Source: Rhodovulum adriaticum
GTDB lineage: Bacteria > Pseudomonadota > Alphaproteobacteria > Rhodobacterales > Rhodobacteraceae
Reading direction: 5' to 3'
NCBI RefSeq assembly: GCF_004345735.1
Contig: NZ_SLXL01000001.1
Span: 62,001 to 126,000 of the forward strand
DNA length: 64,000 nt
Shown: piece by piece, positions 58,949 through 64,000 of the stretch
Layout: each line of letters begins with the position of its first letter
How positions within the stretch are numbered: the stretch's first letter is position 1
Made by a program: the position numbers and the translations under genes
The notes under the pieces: generated by a model
What the model saw: the letters and a program-made list of their open reading frames with translations, nothing else
The model's database searches: none
What the model was told of the DNA's origin: nothing

Positions 58949-59922
58949 ATGGCAATTCTCATCACCGGCGGGGCCGGCTACATCGGCAGCCATGTCGCGC
59001 TTGCCCTTCTGGATACCGGCCACGATGTCGTGATCGCCGACAACCTGAGTACCGGATTGGCATCGCTTGTTCCCGCGCGGGCCACTTTGGAACGGGCGGA
59101 TATCCGCGATCGCGACCGGATGGCGCAAATCATGCGCAAAAACGGCGTGGATACCGTGATCCACTGCGCCGGATCGACGGTCGTACCGGATTCGGTCCGC
59201 GATCCGCTGGCCTATTACGACAACAATGTCGGTGGCACGCTGGGACTGCTGCACGCGATGCAGTCCGCAGGGGTGCGCCGCATCCTGTTTTCCTCTACCG
59301 CCGCCGTCTACGCCATCAACGGCAGCGATCCAATCCCGGAAAGCGCGCCCCTGGCGCCAGCCTCGCCCTATGGCGCGTCCAAGCTGATGGCCGAGCGGAT
59401 CATCCAGGACATGGCCGCGGCGGGCCTGATGGATTACATGATCCTGCGCTCAATTTCAATGTGGCCGGCGCCGATCCGCAGGGCCGTTCGGGCCAGTCCA
59501 CCCCGCGCGCCACGCATCTGATAAAGGTCGCCGCCGAGGTCGCACTGGGCAAGCGCGAAGCGCTGGAAATCTACGGCACCGACTGGCCCACCGCCGACGG
59601 CACGGGGGTACGCGACTTCATCCATGTCGACGACCTGGCCGCTGCGCACCGGCTGGCGATCGAGGCGTTGTGCAACGGCACGGGAAACCGGATCTACAAT
59701 TGCGGCTATGGCCACGGGTTCAGCGTCAGCGCCGTGGTCAGCACGCTGGGCGAGATCACGGGAAAACCGCTGCCGACCCGCGCCGCGCCGCGTCGCCCCG
59801 GCGACCTGGCAGAGGTCGTGGCCGACAGCGCCGCGTTGCGGGAAAACCTCGGTTGGCGACCGCGCCACGACGATCTGCGGGAAATCCTGCGGCACAGTCT
59901 GGCATGGGAAGCGCGCTCGTGA
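58949..59922 (+). pseudogene. galE: UDP-glucose 4-epimerase, frameshifted near 59450
   Basis: A GalE-type SDR that should interconvert UDP-glucose and UDP-galactose or the N-acetyl forms. The first frame (58949 to about 59450) has ITGGAGYIGSH, VIHCAGSTVVPDSV, SSTAAVY and the catalytic Y141 and K145 in SPYGASK, then breaks after DYMILR. The rest continues in another frame from FNVAGADPQGRSGQS to the end at 59922, with GTGVRDFIHVDDLA and RPGDLAEVVADS. Removing two bases (CA at 59451-59452) would restore LRYFNVAGAD and give 323 residues, a normal GalE length. It is a real mutation, a sequencing error, or less likely a programmed shift. Confidence 0.88.
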
Positions 59923-59983: not shown

Positions 59984-61087
59984 ATGTACACGATCGCGAA
60001 CATCAGGCCTCTGGGCTACAACGTCGGCAACCACGCCATCAATTTCGCCCTCCGCCACATGCTGTATGAAACCTTCGGGCGGCTGGTGTCGGTCATCGAC
60101 TATCCCGCGACCAGCCGGCACGAAAGCACGGCCAAGGCCGGTCTGACACCCGGCACCGTGTTCGAGATAAACCGCTTTGCGGACGGCGTGATCGTGGGCG
60201 GCGGCAATCTTTACGAGAACGACGAACTGGAGGTCGACGCGCGCGCGCTGAACTCTCTCCTGCCGCCGATGGTCCTGTTCTCGAACTCGCGCGGGCGGAT
60301 CTTCGACCGGCACGGGCGGCTGTCGGACCGGTCCGACGTGATGCCCGACGCCAAGCTGCAAACGCTGCTGCAGCGCGCCGACCTGTCCCTGTCGCGCGAT
60401 TCGGCGACCCACGCCCATCTGCACGCCATCAACCCCAAGGACGAAATGGGCTGGTGCCCGACGATCAACCTGTCGCGCTACCGGCACTGCCTGCCCGACC
60501 TGCCCGAACACGAAGAGGTGGGCGCGTTGATCTCGGTGCGGACGCCGGGGCTGATGAACGTGCCTTACCGCATCCAAAGCTCGGTACAGGCACAGATCGA
60601 CCTAGCGATCGACAAGCTGCGCGAACGGGGGTGCAAGCGCATCCGCATCCTGTGCAACGACAGCCGCGACCTCGATTTCGCGACGGCGTTCCGCTACACC
60701 AAGGGCGTGGACGCGGTCTATGCCAACGACGTCTACCAGTACCTGGCCCTGCTCAGCCGCGCCGACATGGTGGTCAGCTACCGCCTGCACGCCACGCTGC
60801 CTGCCATTTCCTACGGCACGCCGACGGTCAACATCGTCTACGACGAACGCGCCCTTTCGCTGTGCGACGACCTGGGCCTGGGCGATGCCAGCCTGAACAT
60901 GGTGGAACAGGGCAACGGCTTTGCCGCCGCCTTGGGCGATGCGATCATGTCGGGGGGCTATACCGCAGAACGGCACGCCGCCCTGAAACCCCGCTGGCAA
61001 GAGATCACCGACAGCCAGTTCGCCGCGCTGGCACGGCTGAAGCAGATGATGGGCAGCTACCTGGAAAGCGGAAGCTACGCCCGATGA
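59984..61087 (+). CDS. Polysaccharide pyruvyl transferase family protein
   Basis: A 367-residue protein of the CsaB/WcaK family, which transfers pyruvate from phosphoenolpyruvate to sugars as a ketal, or in some members catalyses other sugar reactions. Seen are DGVIVGGGNLYEND near residue 75, LSLSRDSATHAHLHAI in the middle and the C-terminal donor-site block MVVSYRLHATLPAISYGTPTVNIVYDERA, with its conserved R-L-H. There is no signal peptide. The start overlaps no gene; it follows galE by 61 bases. Its stop overlaps the next start (ATGA). Confidence 0.85.
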   Translation: MYTIANIRPLGYNVGNHAINFALRHMLYETFGRLVSVIDYPATSRHESTAKAGLTPGTVFEINRFADGVIVGGGNLYENDELEVDARALNSLLPPMVLFSNSRGRIFDRHGRLSDRSDVMPDAKLQTLLQRADLSLSRDSATHAHLHAINPKDEMGWCPTINLSRYRHCLPDLPEHEEVGALISVRTPGLMNVPYRIQSSVQAQIDLAIDKLRERGCKRIRILCNDSRDLDFATAFRYTKGVDAVYANDVYQYLALLSRADMVVSYRLHATLPAISYGTPTVNIVYDERALSLCDDLGLGDASLNMVEQGNGFAAALGDAIMSGGYTAERHAALKPRWQEITDSQFAALARLKQMMGSYLESGSYAR

Positions 61088-62025
61088 GCGGGCCGCCGGC
61101 GCCTCTATTCTATGTCCAGGCAAGCGCTGCGGCAGGGATGGGGCACCTGGCGCGCAGCGCGGCCGTTCTGGAAACGCTGTGCGCACAGGGCCACGATGCG
61201 CGGGTTTGGCTGCGCGCCGATGAACAGGGGCACGCGCTGGCCCGCATGCGGGGTTTGCCGCTGGTCGAAACGCCCCACGCGGCGGGGGCGTGCGTCGTGA
61301 TCGACGCGATGTCCGTGCCCGAGGCCGACGCCGCCCTGTTGGCGCGCTTCGACCGTCGCATCCTGATATCGCCCGTCTGCGATCGCGCGGATATTGCCAC
61401 CGATGTGCTGGTCCGGTCGGTTTCGGACCGGCTGCGCGCACAACTGGCGCCCGGTTGCAGGGTGACCTGCGATCCGCGTTTCGCCTATGCCACCGCGGCC
61501 GGGCTGACGCCGCGCAAGATGGGCTATGACGGCCCCCTGTCCGTCGGCATCTGCCTGTCCGGCGGCGCCGGACAGCAGCCGGTCGATGGGCTGGTGCGGG
61601 CCGCCGCCGGGGTTGCCGGGGTGACGGATATCTTCGTGATCGCCCCAGAGCGGCCGCAGCCTGGGGAGGCTGGGCCCGCGCTGCACTGGCAGGCCTTCAG
61701 CAACGATGCCTGGGACTTTTTCGCGGGGTGCAACGTCTTTGTCGGCGGCGACGGGCTGATGATCGCCGAGGCCGTGGCCCAAGGTCTGCCCTGCCTGTCG
61801 ATCACCCGGCCCGAGGCCCTGTTCAAGAACCGCGCCTTCATCGAGGCCGGCTGCATCGAATGCTGTTTTCACGGCGACATGCCCGAAACGGCGCTGGCCG
61901 CGTGGTTGTCGAATCGCCCCGGCCTGGCCGAAATGCACCGTGCAGCCCTGGCCGCTGACGCCAGTGCGGGCGCCCGCGCCCTGGCGGATCACATTGCCCG
62001 GACATCCAAGCAAGAGGAAGGCTGA
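61084..62025 (+). CDS. SpsG/PseG-like glycosyltransferase-fold protein
   Basis: A 313-residue two-domain GT-B-like protein. The N-terminus has FYVQASAAAGMGHLARSAAVLETL, matching the GxGHLxRS entry of PseG/SpsG. The C-terminal half has FVGGDGLMIAEAVAQGLPCLSITRPEALFKNRAFIEAG, the nucleotide-sugar side. PseG removes UDP from an altropyranose during pseudaminate synthesis; SpsG is the Bacillus spore-coat relative. The catalytic residues of PseG could not be checked one by one. It overlaps both the pyruvyltransferase gene and lies three bases from the NeuB-like gene. Confidence 0.78.
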   Translation: MSGPPAPLFYVQASAAAGMGHLARSAAVLETLCAQGHDARVWLRADEQGHALARMRGLPLVETPHAAGACVVIDAMSVPEADAALLARFDRRILISPVCDRADIATDVLVRSVSDRLRAQLAPGCRVTCDPRFAYATAAGLTPRKMGYDGPLSVGICLSGGAGQQPVDGLVRAAAGVAGVTDIFVIAPERPQPGEAGPALHWQAFSNDAWDFFAGCNVFVGGDGLMIAEAVAQGLPCLSITRPEALFKNRAFIEAGCIECCFHGDMPETALAAWLSNRPGLAEMHRAALAADASAGARALADHIARTSKQEEG

Positions 62026-62028
62026 ACC

Positions 62029-63108
62029 ATGCCCGAAATCATCGCAGAGGCCGGCAGCAACCATAACGGCTCGGTCGAGCGGGCCGAGGCGCTGGTCGAC
62101 CTGGCCGCCCGCGCCGGGGCAACCTCGGTCAAGTTCCAGTTCATCTTCGCCGACGGCCTGTACCTGCCCGCCTATTACGACGACGGGCGCTACGTCGAAA
62201 GCGAGGTCTACCACACTCGCAAGGCCGAGGAGCTGAACCGCGAGGACTGGGAACGCATCTGGCGGCACGCCGCACAGACGGGCATCGACATCTCTGCCTC
62301 GGTCTTCGATGCGCAGGGCCTGGCGCTGCTGTCCGACCTGGGCGCCAGCTATGTCAAGATCGCCTCGACCGACGCCACCAACCATGAGCTGATCGGCCAG
62401 GCCTGCGACCTGTTCGACAGGGTGATCGTCAGCACCGGGATGGCGTCGCTGGCCGAAATCGACCCGATGGTCGGTTTCGTGCGGCGCAATTTCCCCGGCA
62501 CAGAATTGCACCTGATGCACTGCGTATCGGCCTATCCCTGCCCGCTGGAACGCGCAAACGTGCAGCGTGTCCGCCTGCTATGCGACTGCTTCGGGGTGCC
62601 GGTGGGCTATTCGGACCATACCGGGGGCACCACGGCGGCGGCCATGTCGCTGACGCAGGGCGCAAGCTTTTTCGAGAAACACATCACGACCGACCGGACG
62701 CTGCCGGGGTTCGACCATGCCCACGCGATGGCAGAGACCGAGTTCACCGATTACGTGGCGACGCTGACCGCCTGCGCGGCCAGCCTGAAGGCCCCCGCCA
62801 ACCAGTCCGCCCCGGCCGAGGATACGACGCGCGTCCGCGCGCGGCGCGGGGTCTACGCGGCACGCGACCTGTCGGCGGGCCATGTCCTGACACGGGACGA
62901 CCTGCTGCATGTCCGGCCCAGTTCGGATTTCCAGGGCTTCGACCTGTCGGCACTGGTCGGGGCCAAGCTGGAAACCGACGTTCAGCGTTACCAGGCCATC
63001 GGCAGATGCCCCGGGGCGCAGGCCACGCACAGCAACTGGCAGGCCGCGCAGGCGTACTGGGCAGGCGAAATGACCGAGAAGGGGATGAAGGCCCGCGATG
63101 ACAACTGA
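62029..63108 (+). CDS. NeuB/PseI/SpsE-type nonulosonate synthase
   Basis: A 359-residue enzyme that condenses phosphoenolpyruvate with a six-carbon sugar to give a nine-carbon acid. The barrel holds IIAEAGSNHNGSVERA, GATSVKFQ, VSTGMASLAEID, LMHCVSAYPCPLE, VGYSDHTGG and FFEKHITTDRTLPGFDH. A C-terminal SAF (antifreeze-like) domain with RARRGVYAARDLSAGHVLTRDDLL completes the family layout. Sialic, legionaminic and pseudaminic branches cannot be told apart by eye. It overlaps the SpsF-like gene by eleven bases. Confidence 0.9.
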   Translation: MPEIIAEAGSNHNGSVERAEALVDLAARAGATSVKFQFIFADGLYLPAYYDDGRYVESEVYHTRKAEELNREDWERIWRHAAQTGIDISASVFDAQGLALLSDLGASYVKIASTDATNHELIGQACDLFDRVIVSTGMASLAEIDPMVGFVRRNFPGTELHLMHCVSAYPCPLERANVQRVRLLCDCFGVPVGYSDHTGGTTAAAMSLTQGASFFEKHITTDRTLPGFDHAHAMAETEFTDYVATLTACAASLKAPANQSAPAEDTTRVRARRGVYAARDLSAGHVLTRDDLLHVRPSSDFQGFDLSALVGAKLETDVQRYQAIGRCPGAQATHSNWQAAQAYWAGEMTEKGMKARDDN

Positions 63109-63793
63109 CACCGCTGCCTTCGTGTATGCCCGCTGCGATTCCAGCCGCTTGCCGGGCAAGATCCTGCGCGAGATCGCGGGCCACACGGTCATCGACATCG
63201 TGCACGCCCGCGCCGCGCGCGTGGCGGTCGACCGCGTGGTGGTCCTGACCACCGACCGCGAGGTGGACGACCCGCTGGCCGCCCATTGCGCGCAACGGGG
63301 CTACCTGTGCTTTCGCGGCGACCCCGAGGATCTGGTCCGCCGGACGCTACAGGCGATCGAGGTGTACGCACCCGCCGCCATCCTACGCGTGAACGGTGAC
63401 AGCCCGCTGTTCGACCCTGCGCTGGCGAATGCCGCGCTGGCCCGCCTGGACAACGGAACCGAGATGGTCAGCAATATCGTCGAACGCAGCTTTCCCTACG
63501 GAATCGCGGTCGAATGGATCGCAACCGACGCCTATGTCCGGCTCGCCGATGCAGCGGAACCGCAGGAACGCGAACATGTCACCCAGCACCTTTACCGGCT
63601 GCGCGGGGCACTGTCGCTGTGCAGCATGACCGACACAGGCGGCAACCACGCAGACCTGCGGCTGACGCTGGACACGCAACAGGACTGGGACGCCCTGTCG
63701 CGGCTTTGCTCGGGCCGGGATGTTACCAAAGTGCCCTACTGGAGGCTTTGCGGCATTGCCGAACCCACACCAGCCTTCAGGCCCGCGCCATGA
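63098..63793 (+). CDS. SpsF/CMP-nonulosonate-type cytidylyltransferase-like protein
   Basis: A 231-residue protein of the SpsF/cytidylyltransferase-like family. AAFVYARCDSSRLPGKILREIAGHTVID carries the R-x-x-S-x-R-L-P-G-K nucleotide site, and AILRVNGDSPLFDPALA the acidic metal pair. EREHVTQHLYR and DLRLTLDTQQDWDAL are SpsF features. SpsF occurs with SpsE and SpsG in Bacillus spore-coat glycan synthesis; a CMP-sugar synthase role is inference. Start and stop overlap the neighbouring genes. Confidence 0.83.
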   Translation: MTTDTAAFVYARCDSSRLPGKILREIAGHTVIDIVHARAARVAVDRVVVLTTDREVDDPLAAHCAQRGYLCFRGDPEDLVRRTLQAIEVYAPAAILRVNGDSPLFDPALANAALARLDNGTEMVSNIVERSFPYGIAVEWIATDAYVRLADAAEPQEREHVTQHLYRLRGALSLCSMTDTGGNHADLRLTLDTQQDWDALSRLCSGRDVTKVPYWRLCGIAEPTPAFRPAP

Positions 63794-64000
63794 CGACAGA
63801 CCGCCCCGCCGATACGATCACCTTGCGCCATGGCGTTCCCACACCGGCCGATCTTTACCTTGACGGGCACCCGCTGAGCCACCTGCTGGGCTGGGACGAG
63901 ACGCTGGCCTGCCTGGACCGGGCAATCGCCCGGCTTTTCACCTTTTTCCGCGCCGCTCAGGACCGGCCCGACCGAACCCCGCTGGACATCTTCCTGTTCG
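63790..64000 (+). CDS. Start of an unidentified gene, cut by the window end
   Basis: The first 70 codons (MTTDRPADTITLRHGVPTPA at the start, LGWDETLACLDRAIARLFTFF in the middle) overlap the SpsF-like stop by four bases (ATGA), so it belongs to the same transcript. Nothing in the visible part is recognisable. It has no signal peptide. It is the next candidate member of the glycan locus. Confidence 0.7.
   Translation, partial: MTTDRPADTITLRHGVPTPADLYLDGHPLSHLLGWDETLACLDRAIARLFTFFRAAQDRPDRTPLDIFLF

Follow-up and report, generated by a model that had tools for sequence, protein, structure and literature searches.

The stretch of DNA analysed here, hereafter the window, comprises 64,000 nucleotides of Rhodovulum adriaticum (bases 62001-126000 of a 721-kb contig in a 3.35-Mb genome) and carries at its right edge four coupled genes, here called PvT, SpsG, SpsE and SpsF, which, with a probability of about 0.65 as judged from gene content and sequence comparison, form a rare, horizontally spread cassette combining the last three steps in the synthesis of a nonulosonate activated by cytidine monophosphate (CMP) with a pyruvyltransferase, the six-carbon sugar being made elsewhere. 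Ketal pyruvylation would thereby be tied to nonulosonate synthesis within one small transferable unit.

The genes follow one another on the forward strand (window numbering throughout): PvT (59984-61087, 367 residues) encodes a ketal-pyruvyltransferase-like protein of the PS_pyruv_trans family, SpsG (61084-62025, start ATG at 61084, 313 residues) an SpsG/PseG-like, predicted uridine diphosphate (UDP)-sugar hydrolase with the motif GMGHLAR, SpsE (62029-63108, 359 residues) a NeuB-family synthase and SpsF (63098-63793, 231 residues) an SpsF-like cytidylyltransferase. All four are open, with a G+C content of 64.7-70.0%, like that of their neighbours. A first, sequence-only reading of this DNA had described them as one overlapping run followed by a fifth gene cut by the window edge, and the list of open reading frames (ORFs) agrees: ORF5 (582 residues), coupled to SpsF by ATGA, starts on the same strand at 63790, occupies the window up to 64000 and continues to 65538. 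The families named in that reading for genes 1, 3 and 4 (CsaB/WcaK-type pyruvyltransferase, NeuB/SpsE-type synthase with SAF domain, SpsF-type nucleotidyltransferase) are upheld by Pfam cut-offs, as PvT matches PS_pyruv_trans (PF04230) with 54.4 bits (cut-off 25.3), SpsE the NeuB domain with 191.6 bits (22.1) and, marginally, SAF with 22.5 bits (21), and SpsF CTP_transf_3 with 75.1 bits (22.6). For gene 2, a PseG/SpsG nature is predicted from the GMGH motif and from a profile of the three cassette rows, whose only non-cassette matches among 1675 ORFs of the collected loci (E up to 1) were two PseG genes (E 2.9e-5 and 1.8e-4), both above the PseG cut-off; SpsG itself had no Pfam match over cut-off (one below it, E 0.12) and none with NCBIfam or PHROGs at the thresholds applied.

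Recurrence and rarity of the cassette

An exact peptide-pattern scan of species genomes with SpsE, which detects close relatives only, led to one locus, in Thioalkalivibrio versutus, and a PvT-profile search among 30 genomes of that genus added a third cassette, in the genome G614. In all three, PvT-SpsG-SpsE-SpsF stand in identical order with near-equal lengths, the respective identities to the host proteins being 66, 36, 60 and 46% in T. versutus and 68, 38, 60 and 46% in G614. Because two further genomes carry orthologues of all four genes at almost unchanged length (36-68% identity), the arrangement is not due to chance. Its surroundings differ, namely a sialic operon in the host, a flagellar region in T. 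versutus and polysaccharide genes in G614. The T. versutus cassette (L007), taken from ORF lists since codon-model gene calling missed the low-GC stretch, lies on an island of 48.2% G+C, compared with 63.5% in the flanks taken for comparison; genes with integrase domains lie on either side of it, and beyond the island FliD, flagellin and a Maf-type glycosyltransferase (its gene about 7 kb off) are encoded.

PvT was matched in 1 of 398 genomes sampled across the phylum (one-protein search, E up to 1e-30), in 1 of 16 genomes of the host genus (E up to 1e-10), the 15 other species giving no match, and in 1 of 369 genomes of the class and 2 of 47 of the order of T. versutus (E up to 1e-12); the matches are the centre genome of each sample, joined by G614 in the searches of the genus Thioalkalivibrio and of its order, and the samples overlap, so that the counts are not to be summed. 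The four-gene cassette is rare, has apparently moved horizontally and recurs as a unit in another class. Matches to the cassette synthase occur more widely, in 53 of 198 genomes of the host family (E up to 0.001), the best one outside the host being 38% identical; at the same limit the host holds three NeuB-family genes, the most among these genomes, and three others hold two. Carriage by phages or plasmids was not indicated: three phage records match SpsE at 26-28% identity and viral contigs none, 101 plasmid records match SpsE, all below 60% identity, and 12 match SpsF, at 38% identity or less among the 10 matches listed, and none matches PvT, SpsG or ORF5. On pSMR1-1 of Pseudosulfitobacter pseudonitzschiae (L112 9007-11040), an SpsF-like stretch of 36.5% identity heads a gene annotated as class III aminotransferase, which sits within a pseB-pseC-pseG-pseI cluster.

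A separate clade of synthases

Trees of the NeuB family, proposed as a check in the sequence-only reading, place the cassette synthases outside the sialic NeuB clade. Among 34 rows, the three group by themselves in a clade supported at 100/100 whose stem is long (1.98 changes per column), the sialic NeuB rows form a separate 100/100 clade, and the deeper forks reach 80-86% bootstrap. The approximately unbiased (AU) test rejects a joining of these two clades (p 0.034), whereas B. subtilis SpsE, a partial PDB segment which stands apart from the cassette in the best tree, can be joined with it without rejection (p 0.148), as can the L048 NeuB (p 0.145) and a Leptospira row (p 0.296). The tree draws on 24 of the 29 family loci L009-L037 (three as L046, L047 and L048; L012, L013, L014, L029 and L032 were left out), its five PDB rows consist of just the aligned segments, and long branches include 3g8r, L034, 6ncs and others. 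Against the NeuB_NnaB model the cassette synthases score 230-247 bits (cut-off 399.65), compared with 390-407 bits for three other divergent family members, and against PseI 201.9 bits were obtained (cut-off 340.25). Most of the compared residues of meningococcal NeuB, which we take to be the important ones, are kept, as K53, K129, S132, S154, Y186, S213, H215, H236, D247 and R314 (meningococcal numbering) stand in all three cassette rows.

The pyruvyltransferase-like protein

R267-L268-H269 of PvT align to the RLH of Escherichia coli WcaK, a motif present in all three cassettes, and R289 is aligned with a lysine of WcaK; for CsaB R148, no counterpart could be aligned with confidence. In CsaB, R148 and H308 matter for phosphoenolpyruvate (PEP) by mutation, the position of R306 comes from docking, and K328R retains activity, the sugar acceptor being N-acetylmannosamine (ManNAc) (PMC10435577). 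With the ketal-pyruvyltransferases CsaB, WcaK and Pvg1p, PvT shares the PS_pyruv_trans domain, the RLH motif and a basic residue in the lysine column; it differs in lying far under the CsaB and WcaK cut-offs and in accompanying nonulosonate genes.

Another PS_pyruv_trans-like gene, not a close relative of PvT, stands directly after the native neuB of one family genome (L051 10385-11458) and matches the PvT profile with E 0.013 and CsaB with 25.3 bits, under the cut-off of 213.1. A pyruvyltransferase beside neuB as a rule of the family was considered and discarded, as one was seen in 1 of 15 native neuB loci; no relatives of this gene were found in the other 14, which had no Pfam scan.

Proposed pathway and relation to known systems

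In the pathway that we propose, the substrate cleaved by SpsG would be a UDP-sugar, and most likely a UDP-diacetamido-trideoxyhexose of the bacillosamine or legionaminic kind whose dehydratase and aminotransferase would be encoded elsewhere. From the freed sugar and PEP, SpsE would build a nine-carbon acid; this acid would be activated with cytidine triphosphate (CTP) by SpsF, and PvT would attach a pyruvate ketal derived from PEP to the nonulosonate or its glycan. In the host, the cassette would be linked via ORF5 to native neuBCA genes, which should yield a second, sialic-type CMP-sugar, and a single operon, with a sulfotransferase gene after them, would supply a surface glycan with two nonulosonates.

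A close characterized parallel comes from Bacillus subtilis, where spsG and spsE are needed for the synthesis of legionaminate and spsF for its transfer, starting from UDP-sugars (PMC7439481). With this spsCDEFG-spsM pathway for CMP-legionaminic acid the cassette has in common an SpsG-like hydrolase (by profile), a NeuB-family synthase and an SpsF-like cytidylyltransferase standing together, the expected UDP-sugar substrates and a first dehydratase encoded elsewhere (PMC7439481). To this extent the likeness to Bacillus spsEFG drawn in the sequence-only reading stands; it ends at the SpsC-type aminotransferase and the SpsD-type acetyltransferase, which are not in the run and in place of which there is a pyruvyltransferase, and at the host, which is Gram-negative and without known spore coat. 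The combination with a pyruvyltransferase also has precedent, without a function being given: among operons described from several phyla, spsE and spsF stand next to a Maf-like gene in a table for Clostridium, and a gene for a sugar pyruvyltransferase is present in several operons of this kind (PMC4000134). These operons of the Clostridium acetobutylicum CA_C2186-2199 type, with DUF4910, thus resemble the cassette in their spsE/spsF-like, Maf-like and, in several, pyruvyltransferase genes, but contain many other modifying genes, and the compact PvT-SpsG-SpsE-SpsF unit is not in the table (PMC4000134).

The neuBCA sets, both the downstream one in the same operon and that of Sinorhizobium meliloti pSymB, likewise combine a NeuB-family synthase with a CMP-transferase, but in the cassette a PseG-like protein replaces NeuC and the synthase is 29% identical to the native NeuB. 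The logic of hydrolase, synthase and cytidylyltransferase is also that of the PseB-C-F-G-H-I pathway, from which the cassette differs in that its run has no PseB, PseC or PseH and its synthase falls under the PseI cut-off. Serratia capsule loci with neuA/neuB are described in a paper whose figure key has pyruvyltransferase genes, the locus being unspecified (PMC9000132).

Possible precursor supply

UDP-2,4-diacetamido-2,4,6-trideoxyglucose is an intermediate of bacillosamine synthesis, and a bacillosamine-type UDP-sugar could feed the cassette. On another host contig (C17, L105 10349-14746), a LegC-family aminotransferase gene (464.8 bits, cut-off 420) stands in a row with genes for a PF02719 dehydratase, a Bac_transf sugar transferase and what by eye looks like a nucleotide-sugar dehydrogenase, a possible UDP-bacillosamine-type supply. 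UDP-2,4-diacetamido-2,4,6-trideoxyglucose has also been proposed in B. subtilis as precursor ahead of the free sugar, and pglF is able to replace spsM (PMC7439481). Contig C17 (L006 5754-11312) also encodes PseB, PseC, PseF, PseG, PseH and PseI, all over NCBIfam cut-offs, and this complete pseudaminic set accounts for the third NeuB-family gene in the genome.

In the T. versutus genome sequence, of unstated completeness, one NeuB-family gene was found, that of the cassette, together with one Epimerase_2 gene, a WecB, and no NeuC. SpsG is therefore the only candidate hydrolase found there, and a nonulosonate in this organism should stem from the cassette, which makes it a clean natural test; UDP-ManNAc from WecB is an alternative substrate. 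Strong PF02719 genes of T. versutus were seen as frames of 655 and 717 residues, and of its two strong DegT aminotransferase genes one has a gene for a Bac_transf sugar transferase in its vicinity. Both Thioalkalivibrio genomes encode a long PF02719 dehydratase as well as a DegT aminotransferase that has a Bac_transf gene close to it; in G614 an intact PF02719 gene lies 7.9 kb and a DegT gene 15 kb downstream of SpsF.

Weighing the proposed cassette function

Several findings weigh against the cassette as proposed. Only three cassettes were found, and no working dehydratase, aminotransferase or acetyltransferase gene adjoins any of them. The DegT proteins of Thioalkalivibrio fall short of both the LegC and the PseC cut-off, the PF02719 gene of G614 accompanies a WecB-type epimerase gene and may thus serve another sugar, and the argument from a single NeuB-family gene in T. 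versutus depends on how complete that sequence is. Beside the cassette GalE of G614 lies a PseB remnant with a stop (L079 18312-18774), from which the cassette may once have adjoined, or recombined with, a pseudaminic locus. With the equivalog models of CsaB and WcaK, PvT scores 41.2 and 19.8 bits, respectively (cut-offs 213.1 and 399), and its structure model is of low confidence (mean predicted local distance difference test, pLDDT, 55.9), giving general glycosyltransferase B (GT-B) matches with template modelling scores of 0.18-0.40 and no named pyruvyltransferase among the 50 structural matches listed; the model was set aside as evidence of function. The SpsG profile missed the PseG of the host genome itself, although present in the same 1675-ORF set, and the pairwise comparison of both proteins is weak (hhalign probability 3.6, E 0.012, 38 columns). 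The three SpsE rows, finally, substitute E134 by D, F288 by R, T110 by S and N184 by S, of which D at 134 is shared with the Leptospira row, L048 and 2 of 21 other family rows, and R at 288 with no row besides those of the cassette; with these four substitutions, a different substrate is possible.

The explanation that survives best beside the proposed one, and which we place a little short of even odds, is that the cassette represents a divergent route to legionaminic or sialic acid and that PvT transfers pyruvate to an ordinary hexose of the same glycan, with nothing chemically new; it overlaps with the proposed reading in the pathway half and differs in the acceptor of PvT. The B. subtilis functions of SpsG, SpsE and SpsF as known steps of legionaminate synthesis (PMC7439481), the operons elsewhere in which spsE/spsF-like and pyruvyltransferase genes meet (PMC4000134) and the different kind of PS_pyruv_trans-like gene after the native neuB in L051 are all in keeping with it, and so are the usual pyruvate acceptors, which are hexoses such as galactose, mannose and glucose (PMC6801904), or ManNAc for CsaB (PMC10435577). 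On the other hand, PvT is better conserved than the other cassette genes and accompanies SpsG, SpsE and SpsF in three of three cassettes with differing surroundings, which favours an acceptor provided by the cassette itself. Such an acceptor would lead to a nonulosonic acid bearing a pyruvate ketal, and that the mobile cassette makes this doubly acidic, pyruvylated nine-carbon sugar, for flagellin in T. versutus or a surface glycan in the host, is in our judgement rather unlikely. The acceptors listed in the available parts of PMC6801904 include a pyruvylated 3-deoxy-D-manno-octulosonic acid (Kdo), and neither these parts nor those of related open-licence literature contain a pyruvylated nonulosonate; open-licence papers, among which most subscription journals are not covered, likewise yielded none joining Thioalkalivibrio with nonulosonic or Rhodobacteraceae with nonulosonic acid.

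That cassette and neuBCA lead to one and the same sialic-type sugar, the cassette being a redundant or decaying import in the host, is a good deal less probable still: neuBCA should suffice for CMP-sialate, the GalE-like gene in front of the cassette is split over two frames and PvT is not in the 15 other species of the host genus searched, but the four genes are open, have the G+C content of their neighbours and are coupled to ORF5, and the joining of the SpsE clade with that of the adjacent NeuB, 29% identical, is rejected. Least probable is a function of PvT as CMP-nonulosonate transferase, for which the likeness of the pyruvyltransferase Pvg1p to GT-B enzymes, sialyltransferases included (PMC4872226), and the position of PvT as sole cassette gene without an assigned pathway step could be adduced, since the conserved RLH and R289 stand in the columns of PEP binding in CsaB and Pvg1p and T. 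versutus has its Maf-type transferase gene close by.

Genes around the cassette

The sequence-only reading had offered two options, that the enzymes for the six-carbon precursor lie to the right of the window or that a different sugar is used; in the extension of the run to the right, these enzymes do not follow. Following ORF5 on the forward strand are neuB (65551-66579), neuC (66576-67727), neuA (67720-68427), a sulfotransferase gene (68424-69281) and a gene of 358 codons whose product matches no family; at the nine junctions of this ten-gene run, from PvT onwards, neighbouring genes overlap by 4-11 bases or stand 3 and 12 bases apart. By Pfam and NCBIfam, no dehydratase, aminotransferase or acetyltransferase is among the ten; no family match was obtained for three of them, ORF5, SpsG and the tenth gene. 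The neuB-neuC-neuA set begins 1.76 kb past SpsF within the same tightly coupled run, the arrangement that had been named beforehand as speaking against an uncharacterised nonulosonate pathway; for the operon as a whole that proposal falls, while the four cassette genes, which recur as a unit and have a synthase clade of their own, are a separate module from neuBCA.

The downstream neuBCA is, by its sequence matches, an ordinary sialic-type set. NeuC matches the hydrolysing UDP-N-acetylglucosamine 2-epimerase model TIGR03568 with 337.1 bits (cut-off 235.9), and NeuB groups 100/100 with meningococcal NeuB, yet stays with 348.9 bits under the TIGR03569 cut-off of 399.65; NeuA reaches 72.9 bits with CTP_transf_3 and 81.8 with PseF (cut-off 205.7), no NeuA-specific model being matched. 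Fifteen loci of other family genomes (L039-L045, L051-L058) carry a NeuB that shares 75-83% identity with this one, and in 14 of them NeuC follows suit at 57-68% identity; five further loci compared (L046-L050) hold other NeuB types. Nowhere in these 20 family loci were cassette proteins the best match (E up to 1e-6, overlapping weaker matches being unlisted). NeuB is also 76% identical to proteins of S. meliloti pSymB, where the one locus inspected has the order cytidylyltransferase, NeuB, NeuC and a polysialyltransferase-family gene. Among plasmid records, this NeuB and the window DNA match rhizobia and other alphaproteobacteria for the most part.

ORF5, for which we infer a role as transferase, matches no known protein family, and an identification by structure was abandoned with an unusable model (mean pLDDT 36.6). 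Its similarity to the 469-residue protein encoded after SpsF in G614 is at chance level only (blastp E 3.8; hhalign probability 0.6); the latter has a match to TIGR04396 below cut-off (28.8 versus 125).

Upstream of the cassette, on the same strand, a gene for a GalE-like nucleoside diphosphate (NDP)-sugar 4-epimerase (58949-59922) is split over two frames near 59440-59455, either as a true pseudogene or by an assembly error. Each part is 62% identical to the intact GalE of G614, which scores 397.4 bits with the GalE model TIGR01179 (cut-off 262.3). The order GalE-PvT-SpsG-SpsE-SpsF is thus found in two of the three cassettes, host and G614, compared with three of three for the four-gene unit; in T. 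versutus GalE lies between the cassette and the downstream integrase gene. This GalE-like gene ahead of the cassette might indicate a substrate of galacto configuration, yet it is split in the host and not in front in T. versutus. Right of neuA (L004 10424-18577, L005), the sulfotransferase gene is followed further along by surface-glycan genes, among them those for a UDP-sugar dehydrogenase, an ABC exporter and an AT3-SGNH acyltransferase, and an asparagine-synthase-like gene.

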